Of a DNA stretch of 64,000 nucleotides, positions 11,501-20,049 are shown in pieces; the first letter of the stretch is position 1, and each line of letters starts with the position of its first letter. The stretch comes from an uncultured Olsenella sp. (GTDB lineage: Bacteria > Actinomycetota > Coriobacteriia > Coriobacteriales > Atopobiaceae), in assembly GCA_900314535.1 (NCBI GenBank), contig OMVT01000008.1:1-64000 (forward strand), written 5' to 3'. The notes below the pieces were generated by a model. The model made no database searches. It saw only the letters and a program-made list of their open reading frames with translations, and was not told the origin of the DNA. Both the position numbers and the translations under genes were made by a program.

Positions 11501-12280
11501 CTATTTGCAAACAGAATAGCCAAAGTATATGGTTAGGGTGTCAACTGGAGTGATGCCATCCTCTGCATATACAGTAACCTTTTCCGTATGCGGAGATCCG
11601 TAAAGTTCGAGGGCTTCCTCTGCAGTATCAGGTTCTCTAAAAGCTATATCGCGATAATATACATATCCATCAATTCCATTGTTGCCAGTTGCGGTAATGA
11701 GATCTGGATAGTATCCATTTGCTTTTTCGGCGAGCAGAGAACCATATTTAAGTCCTGTAGCATTTGTCTTGTATACATCGGTATAGGGCGAGATGTCGTA
11801 AATTGCGATAGAGTTCTTCAGGGAAGAAGTGATGAGTGTCGCTGTTGGAAATTGAGTAGTGTACTTTCCGCTTGACCCTCCATTGAGAGAAAGATATGCA
11901 GATGTCCTGTATGCATAACCTGAAACTTTGCTTCCTGAAGCAGTAGCTAGGAAATATGTCGTTGCACTTGGATTGCTCGACGTGGAGCCTGCGACAAACT
12001 TTTCGTCTCGGGTAAATGCAATAGAAATAGTTGCGGATCCTGCACTGAATTCTTGTGAGCTGGATAGCACCGCATTGCCTTGGGCGCTGCTAGAAAACTC
12101 ATTTGCGCTTGTGCTTGCAGCGTATGAATTGCCCCATACTGAGAATCTCAAAACGCTGCTATTGGCAGAGGCGGCATACGCTAGCGTACTGCTCAAGAAG
12201 CAACTGGCGACCAATGAAAACAAGAGTGTTATCAGCGCCCTTTTCATGTTCTTGTTGAAGAATGCGTCGGAACTAGACAT
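11501..12280 (-). CDS. Secreted protein of unknown function, low-GC island
   Basis: 259 aa. An N-terminal signal peptide is clear (KR, then ALITLLFSLVASCFLSSTLAYA, cleavage near AYAASA). The middle is Ser/Ala/Thr-rich. The last about 85 residues hold a domain with YGS, YYPDLITATGNNGIDGYVYYRD and VYAEDGITPVDTL that is paralogous to the C-terminus of the adjacent lipoprotein gene. I have seen this YGS...PDLI..G.NG..GYV...DG pattern in secreted proteins of Gram-positive bacteria but know no function. GGGAGG lies 5 nt before the ATG. Base composition is visibly more AT-rich than the neighbours, suggesting acquisition. Confidence 0.75.
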   Translation of the reverse strand: MSSSDAFFNKNMKRALITLLFSLVASCFLSSTLAYAASANSSVLRFSVWGNSYAASTSANEFSSSAQGNAVLSSSQEFSAGSATISIAFTRDEKFVAGSTSSNPSATTYFLATASGSKVSGYAYRTSAYLSLNGGSSGKYTTQFPTATLITSSLKNSIAIYDISPYTDVYKTNATGLKYGSLLAEKANGYYPDLITATGNNGIDGYVYYRDIAFREPDTAEEALELYGSPHTEKVTVYAEDGITPVDTLTIYFGYSVCK

Positions 12281-12328
12281 ATAAACCTCCCATGAATACT
12301 GCTCGTCATCAAATCGTGTTTCTTATCC

Positions 12329-12862
12329 TTACCTGAGACTCGTCGTGAGCGTATCGACCATCGTCGTCCCGTCCTGAGCAAAGAGCGGCAGCGTACGTTC
12401 GCCAATCTCATTGAAGGCAGCGATGCGTGCCGTGTCCACATCGCCTGTGGTCGCATAGGCCGGCGGGAAGAGGTCGGTCTTGTACACGTAGCCTTCGGTG
12501 CCATTGTCCCCGACAGCTGAGATGAGATCTGGAAAGTAGGAGATGTACTCGTCGTAATAGCCTTCGGCATTGGGGACCGGCGGATAGATGCCATCGGCGC
12601 TTCCATAGGTGAGGCCGGCATCGTTTGCCGGGTAGCTCTGCTTCTCCGAGAATGGTCCCGTCATCGTGAGATTGCCGAAGACGAGCACTTCGTTGCCGTT
12701 GCTGTCGGTGTATGTCGAATCGGGCTGGACAGACGATGCGCCCGTGGCGGCATCTGCCGTGCTGGATGCGCCATTTTCGGCAGCAGTCCCTGCACCGCAT
12801 CCGGAAAGCCCCAAGATGAGGGCGCAAGCGCAGACAGCAAGACGCATTCTTCTTCGCTTCAT
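12329..12862 (-). CDS. Lipoprotein paralogous to adjacent secreted protein
   Basis: 177 aa. Signal peptide KRRRMRLAVCACALILGLSGC with lipobox LSGC, so a membrane-anchored lipoprotein, followed by an Ala/Ser/Thr-rich linker. Residues about 80-175 (LTYGSADG, FPDLISAVGDNGTEGYVYKTDL, LFAQDGTTMVDTL) align with the C-terminal domain of the downstream secreted protein. Both genes are on the minus strand, 48 nt apart, and are probably an operon arising by duplication. Function unknown. Confidence 0.75.
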   Translation of the reverse strand: MKRRRMRLAVCACALILGLSGCGAGTAAENGASSTADAATGASSVQPDSTYTDSNGNEVLVFGNLTMTGPFSEKQSYPANDAGLTYGSADGIYPPVPNAEGYYDEYISYFPDLISAVGDNGTEGYVYKTDLFPPAYATTGDVDTARIAAFNEIGERTLPLFAQDGTTMVDTLTTSLR

Positions 12863-18319: not shown

Positions 18320-18367
18320 CCTCTCTTCCTGGCTTCCTCCTTTCCCCCAGGAAGAGCCGTACAAGCA

Positions 18368-18412
18368 ATGAAGGCGCCCTCCGGACTGATTGCATCCGGA
18401 GGGCGCCTTCAT
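18368..18412 (+). terminator. Long stem-loop after eda
   Basis: An 18-bp perfect stem (ATGAAGGCGCCCTCCGGA with its complement) around a 9-nt loop. There is no long T run, so it may also serve as a 3' stabiliser. Confidence 0.65.
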
Positions 18413-18535
18413 GTGTAGAGGTAATCTTGATTGCATCGGAATCAGAATGGATAACAGATTGGCTTCTACGCTCGCCATAGCCGTTCCTGATTCATCCACT
18501 GGTGGATACAGCATTTCTTGGAAAGAAGAAGCAGC

Positions 18536-19960
18536 ATGACAAAACCGCGCAAGACGCATGATCAGTTCGCAGAAGAGCTGGCTGCTATCAATCCGGGAAT
18601 CGAACTGACTACGAGATATGTCATGAGCACCGAAAGAATTGGCTGCAGGTGCAAGCTATGCGGCTATGAGTGGAGTCCCAAGGCATATTCCCTGCTCTCC
18701 GGAAGAGGCTGTCCGGCATGTGCACGTACGAAAACATCCTTCATGGAGAAGATTTTCTTGTTTTCATTTCGAAAGCTGCTGGGAGATGAGAATGTACTCT
18801 CTGACGATTGCAACGCTATCGGTATGGAACTGGATGTATACGTGCCTTTGCTGAAGGTCGCTGTCGAACCGGGGAGCTGGGTATGGCATGGTAACTTGAA
18901 AGCACAGCAGCGCGATGAAGAAAGACGGGCCAGATGCCTTAGCCATGGCATCAGACTTGCGACTGTTTATGACAGCTTCCCCTCCAATCAGGCAATACCT
19001 TTCGAAGGGGAAGGACTATTTACATTCGACGAAGATTTCAATGTTGCTTCTCATCAGAAGCTGCATGCAGTCGTTAATGATGTCCTTGCCTACTTGGGTA
19101 TTGCGGATAGGATTGACGAATCCGAATGGACGGACATCGAATTAGAAGCCCATGAGGCTTGTCACCGTAAGACTACAGCAGAGTTCAAAAACGAACTTGA
19201 GGCTGTAGATTCGAGCATCGAGGTTATTGGAGAATATCTGGGAAGCAAGGATCGAATCAAATGCCGGTGCAAGAAATGCGGCTATGAATGGAGCCCAATT
19301 CCAAATTCACTGCTAAATGGTCATGGTTGTCCCAAGTGTGGTATCCAGGCTCGAGCAAGGAAAAAGACAGCAACTCATGCTGAATACGCTGCACGACTTG
19401 CCAAAATCAATCCAACAATTGAACTGCTTTCTACATACACAAAGGCAATGGAACCCATATTGTGCAGGTGCAGAGCTTGCGGATATGAGTGGCAATCTAC
19501 GCCTTCGGAGTTGCTTTCGTATGGTTGCCCAAAGTGTGGAGCGAAGAAAGCGCATCTTAAGACGACCAAGTCTCAGATGGAATTCGAGAAGGACATGTCC
19601 ATAGCGTGTCCAAAGCTAGAAGTCATAGGCGATTACATCAATCAATACACGAAGGTAAGAGTTCGCTGTCGCCAATGCGGGCGCGAATGGGAGGCTATGC
19701 CCAAGGTTCTTCTCAGAGGTACTAGCTGTCGTATTTGTTCGGAGAAGGAGAGACGCAGAGTTCGCAATGAGGAATTCAAGGTCAAGCTGCGAGAAAAGAA
19801 TCCCAATATCGAACCCATCGATGACTACGTCAACAATAAAACCAAGATGCATGTACGGTGTGCTCTCTGTGGTATGGAATGGATGGCTTGGCCACGGAAT
19901 CTGCTACTTGGCTATTCTCATGAGGGTGCTAAGACCATTCATGCGAAGATTAAACAGTAG
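18536..19960 (+). CDS. Zinc-knuckle repeat protein with embedded VSR/DUF559-like nuclease domain
   Basis: 474 aa. Five copies of a roughly 65-residue unit of the form F..L...NP.IE....Y......I.CRC..CGYEW...P..LL.G.GCP.C begin near residues 8, 213, 280, 344 and 410. The fifth lacks the closing CPxC. Between units 1 and 2 (about 68-175) is a domain with MELDVYVP (D100), VAVEPGSWVWHGN (E111, H118) and RDEERRARCLSHGIRLATVYD, resembling VSR/DUF559-type PD-(D/E)xK nucleases. Treble-clef units of this type occur in phage and bacterial nuclease-like proteins. Base composition is clearly more AT-rich than flanking genes, suggesting transfer. Substrate unknown. ATG 18536 follows GAAAGAAG. Confidence 0.8.
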   Translation: MTKPRKTHDQFAEELAAINPGIELTTRYVMSTERIGCRCKLCGYEWSPKAYSLLSGRGCPACARTKTSFMEKIFLFSFRKLLGDENVLSDDCNAIGMELDVYVPLLKVAVEPGSWVWHGNLKAQQRDEERRARCLSHGIRLATVYDSFPSNQAIPFEGEGLFTFDEDFNVASHQKLHAVVNDVLAYLGIADRIDESEWTDIELEAHEACHRKTTAEFKNELEAVDSSIEVIGEYLGSKDRIKCRCKKCGYEWSPIPNSLLNGHGCPKCGIQARARKKTATHAEYAARLAKINPTIELLSTYTKAMEPILCRCRACGYEWQSTPSELLSYGCPKCGAKKAHLKTTKSQMEFEKDMSIACPKLEVIGDYINQYTKVRVRCRQCGREWEAMPKVLLRGTSCRICSEKERRRVRNEEFKVKLREKNPNIEPIDDYVNNKTKMHVRCALCGMEWMAWPRNLLLGYSHEGAKTIHAKIKQ

Positions 19961-19994
19961 CTCCCAGAGCAAGACACAACACCATATCGACAAT

Positions 19995-20025
19995 GCAGCC
20001 TCCCCGGACGTACCGGAGAGGCTGC
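19995..20025. terminator. Terminator between zinc-knuckle gene and nhaC
   Basis: GCAGCCTCCCCGG pairs with CCGGAGAGGCTGC (one mismatch) around a 5-nt loop between two convergent genes. Confidence 0.65.
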
Positions 20026-20049
20026 AGAAATATCGTTGTTTTGGATGGA

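Follow-up and report, generated by a model that had tools for sequence, protein, structure and literature searches.

The 64,000-nucleotide stretch of the genome of an uncultured, gut-type Olsenella sp. analysed here (the window) carries, at positions 18536–19960 of the forward strand, an ATG-initiated open reading frame of 474 amino acids. With a probability that we set near 0.7, it is a free-standing gene for an EDxHD/Vsr-like homing endonuclease of variant architecture. The open reading frame, Pfam, PHROG and a repeat HMM together describe a protein with five CapR/DUF4379 zinc units and an internal EDxHD/Vsr-like nuclease. The homing reading rests on these domains, a conserved active site, fold similarity, solitary mobility, empty sites, purifying selection and broken copies; from them we infer cleavage, the target and homing itself. 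Homing endonucleases have mostly been studied in phages, organelles and introns.

Genomic context of the nuclease gene

The nuclease gene sits alone between convergent genes for a KDPG aldolase (eda) and a Na+/H+ antiporter (nhaC), in an interval spanning positions 18320–20049, and a PfkB-type sugar kinase and a LysR regulator are encoded nearby. The initial annotation had remarked on a composition sharply different from that of the neighbours and on the lack of an adjacent methylase or partner gene, and both remarks hold. The GC content of the gene is 47.9% against 61–64% in the neighbours, and its GC3 is 49% against 72–82%; no methylase or defence gene was found among these neighbours, whose products are metabolic enzymes, a transporter and the LysR regulator. 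Acquisition of the gene is supported. A perfect 18-bp inverted repeat to its left (18368–18412) is the probable eda terminator, and a 14-bp inverted repeat (19994–20026) is a probable terminator between the nuclease and antiporter genes. Since no group I or II intron was detectable at the window locus with Rfam, the enzyme was classed as a free-standing, not an intron-encoded, EDxHD/Vsr-like enzyme. No second copy was found elsewhere in its own genome.

Elsewhere in the window, two adjacent lower-GC frames on the reverse strand (11501–12862) have signal-peptide-like starts and no Pfam match, and both contain a similar 'YxPDLIxAxGxNGxxGYVY'-like stretch. The same genome encodes another DUF4379 protein, unrelated and of a different kind (locus L050, contig G000:C43, 3965–7190), which adjoins a MazG-like protein and a Schlafen-group-3 helicase with a GIY-YIG match, possibly as a defence operon.

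The zinc-unit array

The zinc units, each of about 57–65 residues, are arranged 1 + 4 around the nuclease. According to the repeat HMM built in this analysis, which placed their boundaries, unit 1 (residues 7–63, 18554–18724) lies upstream of the nuclease and is followed, beyond it, by unit 2 (residues 213–269, 19172–19342), unit 3 (residues 280–335, 19373–19540), unit 4 (residues 346–402, 19571–19741) and unit 5 (residues 411–461, 19766–19918), all on the forward strand. Pfam recognised DUF4379 in five stretches (E 3.4e-19) as well as CapR (E 4e-16), in agreement with the five zinc-knuckle units around a nuclease-like domain described initially. The PHROG families 'HNH endonuclease' (E 4e-86) and 'endonuclease' (E 4e-48) matched mainly over the zinc units. 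Pfam matches such as HypA were taken as zinc-ribbon cross-hits.

Two CxxC pairs serve as the zinc ligands. In a set of 110 units from the bacterial lineage, three of the four positions always hold a cysteine wherever the alignment column is occupied, and the remaining position does so in 105. In the window protein, unit 4 closes with CRIC, without the proline, and unit 5 lacks the closing CxxC pair altogether, as the initial annotation had seen. Unit 5 probably does not hold zinc normally, and the loss of these two ligands suggests that the window copy may be starting to decay. An origin of the units by tandem duplication was rejected, because the nearest match lies in the same protein for only 10 of the 110 units and unit identity is alike within proteins (38%) and between them (36%).

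Between the two CxxC pairs, unit positions 41, 43, 45, 46, 49 and 51 are highly variable in the same set of 110, beside the conserved P44, L47, L48, G50 and G52. By analogy with studied CapR and homing-endonuclease relatives, the CapR/DUF4379 units most likely bind DNA, and the variable positions may be those that read bases. AlphaFold modelled the full-length protein as beads on a string (pLDDT 87, pTM 0.45); a full-length fold search returned no match for the unit array, and the nuclease matched the homing endonuclease structure 3r3p.

The nuclease domain and its active site

The nuclease domain, delimited by alignment, AlphaFold and fold search, is a 149-residue insert between units 1 and 2 (residues 64–212, 18725–19171, forward strand), and pLDDT is 92 across residues 62–215. 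The residues E71, E98, D100, P104, E111, H118 and D127 are invariant in the window domain and in 18 relatives, that of phage AR9 included. Among them, E71 (18746–18748), D100 (18833–18835), E111 (18866–18868), H118 (18887–18889) and D127 (18914–18916) fit the E-D-x-H-D signature. The initial annotation had correctly singled out D100, E111 and H118 but had overlooked E71 and D127, with which the active site is complete; it had also considered a loss of catalytic residues across the family, and the alignment shows them conserved.

When the nuclease profile was compared with the whole PDB, the top match was I-Bth0305I, the type enzyme of the EDxHD homing endonucleases (3r3p, E 0.0016). An aspartate of this structure aligns nine residues past the H118-aligned position, the same spacing as between H118 and D127, which supports the assignment of D127. 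The deposited 3r3p chain carries an alanine at the H118-aligned position; a catalytic mutant of I-Bth0305I was reportedly crystallised. Foldseek ranked the Vsr-DNA complex 1cw0 first in the PDB (probability 0.99, with an E-value of 0.02 that is weak and the best obtained), and 1vsr (probability 0.96) and 3r3p (probability 0.92) were among the top five. These matches bear out the Vsr-like core proposed initially. Among viral models (BFVD), phage treble-clef/endonuclease proteins led the fold search (E 1e-7), and several annotated homing endonucleases followed lower down.

Fold matches to the nuclease in BFVD also comprised giant-virus zinc-ribbon proteins (Terrestrivirus, Barrevirus) and uncharacterised proteins of Mimivirus and Klosneuvirus. 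According to these models, the combination of units and nuclease may occur in giant viruses too.

Relation to known homing endonucleases

The window protein shares with EDxHD homing endonucleases the E, D, H and D residues in a Vsr-like fold. Those enzymes also have separate tethered DNA-binding domains, to which the five CapR/DUF4379 units, predicted to bind DNA, would correspond, and their gene is absent from the cognate allele, as is the case for the window gene in one genome of the genus (G002) and for a Bacteroides cellulosilyticus relative in two genomes (G231 and G216). The characterised enzyme of the EDxHD type is intron-borne, whereas the window gene has no intron; free-standing forms are nevertheless common among homing genes generally (PMC12350094), and an intron is not strictly required.

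In homing endonucleases borne on group II introns of phages, CapR/DUF4379/DUF723 is joined to an EDxHD/Vsr-like nuclease, with three to five units of about 60 residues and a nuclease of about 100 residues (PMC12350094). Both building blocks are common to these enzymes and the window protein. However, the phage enzymes are intron-borne with a C-terminal nuclease, while the window protein is chromosomally encoded without an intron and has a longer nuclease domain of 150 residues within the array. With one unit before the nuclease and four after it, the window protein is a variant that does not share their exact layout. I-Bth0305I, the top PDB profile match with equal active-site spacing, is a phage-encoded mobile-intron enzyme reported to contact a long DNA target through multiple domains, and its comparison with the window protein concerns the catalytic domain only. 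The homing endonucleases of ICP1 with CapR and T5orf172 show the same zinc units in variable numbers together with domain shuffling (PMC10448857). They differ from the window protein in their T5orf172 nuclease and in having the DNA-binding part and the nuclease at opposite ends; Pfam found T5orf172 with the same zinc units in one phage relative (L058) and not in the window protein.

Similar proteins were found in 633 phage records. Those phage proteins that were examined have the nuclease core behind N-terminal units and no units beyond it. Two surveys describe phage enzymes in which the DNA-binding units and the nuclease occupy opposite ends (PMC12350094; PMC10448857). The AR9 proteins g146 and g188 and similar phage enzymes have the same nuclease core as the window protein, but their three or four units all precede it at the N-terminal end, and the C-terminal region is free of zinc units. 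The genes of phage relatives occupy homing positions: g146, annotated as a homing endonuclease, lies inside the split virion RNA polymerase (RNAP) beta' gene, g188 adjoins the split RNAP beta gene, and the terminase gene of an Enterococcus phage is split around repeat-bearing endonucleases.

Distribution of the bacterial lineage

The lineage of the window protein was found on chromosomes of Bacillota, Bacteroidota, Actinomycetota, Spirochaetota and Saccharibacteria, and is nearly absent from 2.9 million viral contigs with the patterns used. The window protein and 15 relatives with an unbroken frame have units both before and after the nuclease, and the unit numbers range from 1 + 4 in the window to 5 + 6 in an eleven-unit relative (L078). 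A limited literature search found no description of this embedded-nuclease form. A Saccharibacteria relative ends in a NUMOD1 domain, known from homing endonucleases (E 2e-8, above cut-off), and NUMOD1-like tails were judged by eye to be present in four more bacterial relatives. Presence is sporadic: the gene was found in one of three genomes of the genus, that of the window, and strong nuclease matches in about 10 of 398 genomes of the class, a count that leaves aside weak profile matches in some 80 class genomes (E about 1e-10 or higher, mostly frames of 320–400 residues), which by length and matched part look like DUF559-type proteins. Support in a nuclease tree of 18 sequences was too weak to place the window copy.

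Plasmid carriage was seen in one distant match, pWW1 of L. kefiranofaciens (L137, 1484–3507), where units precede the nuclease and two more lie in an overlapping second frame, beside a tyrosine recombinase. A 1117-residue open frame (L142, G458:C133:20740-21171) bears the same nuclease.

The initial annotation had taken the protein for a solitary defence effector, whose zinc units would recognise phage or plasmid DNA for destruction by the nuclease. Such a role would suit the sporadic, chromosomal and largely non-viral distribution, the intact active site and the purifying selection described below. It is nonetheless unlikely. No recurrent partner gene or defence island emerged across 16 loci, so that the solitary character suggested at the outset was retained and the defensive one was not, and PADLOC gave trivial matches only. 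A self-cutting nuclease would moreover need an immunity protein or methylase, none of which was found, unless its own site is absent. The initial annotation had named homologues embedded in prophages with an established homing role as evidence against its own proposal, and this is largely what was found: the phage relatives stand in homing positions and the bacterial NUMOD1 tail points the same way.

Mobility, empty sites and selection

In another genome of the same genus (G002, contig C46), the aldolase and antiporter genes are adjacent and in the same order, with about 180 bp between the aligned parts and no nuclease gene. This intergenic DNA is not alignable to the window, which prevents the exact insertion ends from being fixed there. 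An empty site was also found for B. cellulosilyticus: its copy, which follows an intact hipBA (L074, 6505–9740), is flanked by hipA and by a downstream segment common to related genomes, and in G231 and G216 this insertion site holds just 31 bp. A Parabacteroides copy is 81% identical to that of B. cellulosilyticus over the gene only, in unrelated surroundings; it is one unit shorter and is frameshifted. Between two Clostridia copies, identity is 79.5% over a segment that runs from 16–25 bp ahead of the start codon to where the frame ends, in contigs that leave short flanks for comparison. As close copies are alike over the gene alone, the mobile unit appears, from these sequences, to be the open reading frame itself.

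Close intact pairs gave dN/dS values of 0.12 and 0.135, with 0.09 in the nuclease, which indicates that the enzymes have been kept working. Other copies are broken: that of G072 is frame-broken, and that of B. oleiciplenus is cut by an IS30-like element. Gain followed by decay is typical of homing genes. In B. oleiciplenus (L075, 7796–9682), the gene directly abuts a truncated hipB, with no hipA present, and the IS30-like element sets the C-terminal tail apart.

A former homing endonuclease could also have been retained as a DNA-binding regulator or for another host function, like CapR of phage satellites, a zinc-finger repressor reported to have arisen from the DNA-binding domains of homing endonucleases (PMC10448857). 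The degenerate unit 5 would be compatible with this fate, which we consider distinctly unlikely: all five active-site residues are intact, the nuclease has the lowest dN/dS in close pairs, and sporadic presence is not expected of a generally useful host gene.

Transport as cargo of a transposon or integrative element, and not by its own nuclease, is very improbable, even though recombinases lie near a few relatives (L068, L072 and L137). No terminal inverted repeats of a transposon were found around the window gene and no transposase or integrase at its locus, most loci have no adjacent mobile gene, and the similarity of close copies ends with the frame. That the protein is a Vsr-type mismatch repair endonuclease with extra domains is hardly credible: Vsr shares the nuclease fold and gave the top PDB fold match, but it is a small enzyme to which the repeats and the embedded architecture are foreign, the Pfam Vsr family was unmatched, no cytosine methylase is nearby and the gene behaves as a mobile one.

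Proposed mode of action and implications

As a homing endonuclease, the protein would use its array of zinc treble-clef units, one ahead of the nuclease and four behind it, to bind a long stretch of target DNA, and the intervening Vsr-like domain would make a metal-dependent cut. Recombinational repair of a cut allele lacking the gene would then copy the gene in, and the inserted gene would interrupt or displace the target. Relatives with other unit numbers and sequences would have other targets. Against homing stands the host locus, an ordinary chromosome, where occupied and empty alleles meet less often than in phages.

The lineage is unusual in being mostly chromosomal over five phyla and in holding its nuclease inside the repeat array. 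We tentatively propose, with clearly less than even confidence, that it is a distinct, mainly chromosomal homing-endonuclease lineage of gut and rumen bacteria. With its cutting domain embedded among as many as eleven exchangeable zinc units, the enzyme would read long DNA to either side of its cut and be retargeted by unit gain and loss, as a natural modular meganuclease. If this is true, a bare gene moving between chromosomes of five phyla would offer a tractable case of selfish-nuclease retargeting, and small zinc units varying at set positions would be a possible scaffold for unit-wise DNA recognition.
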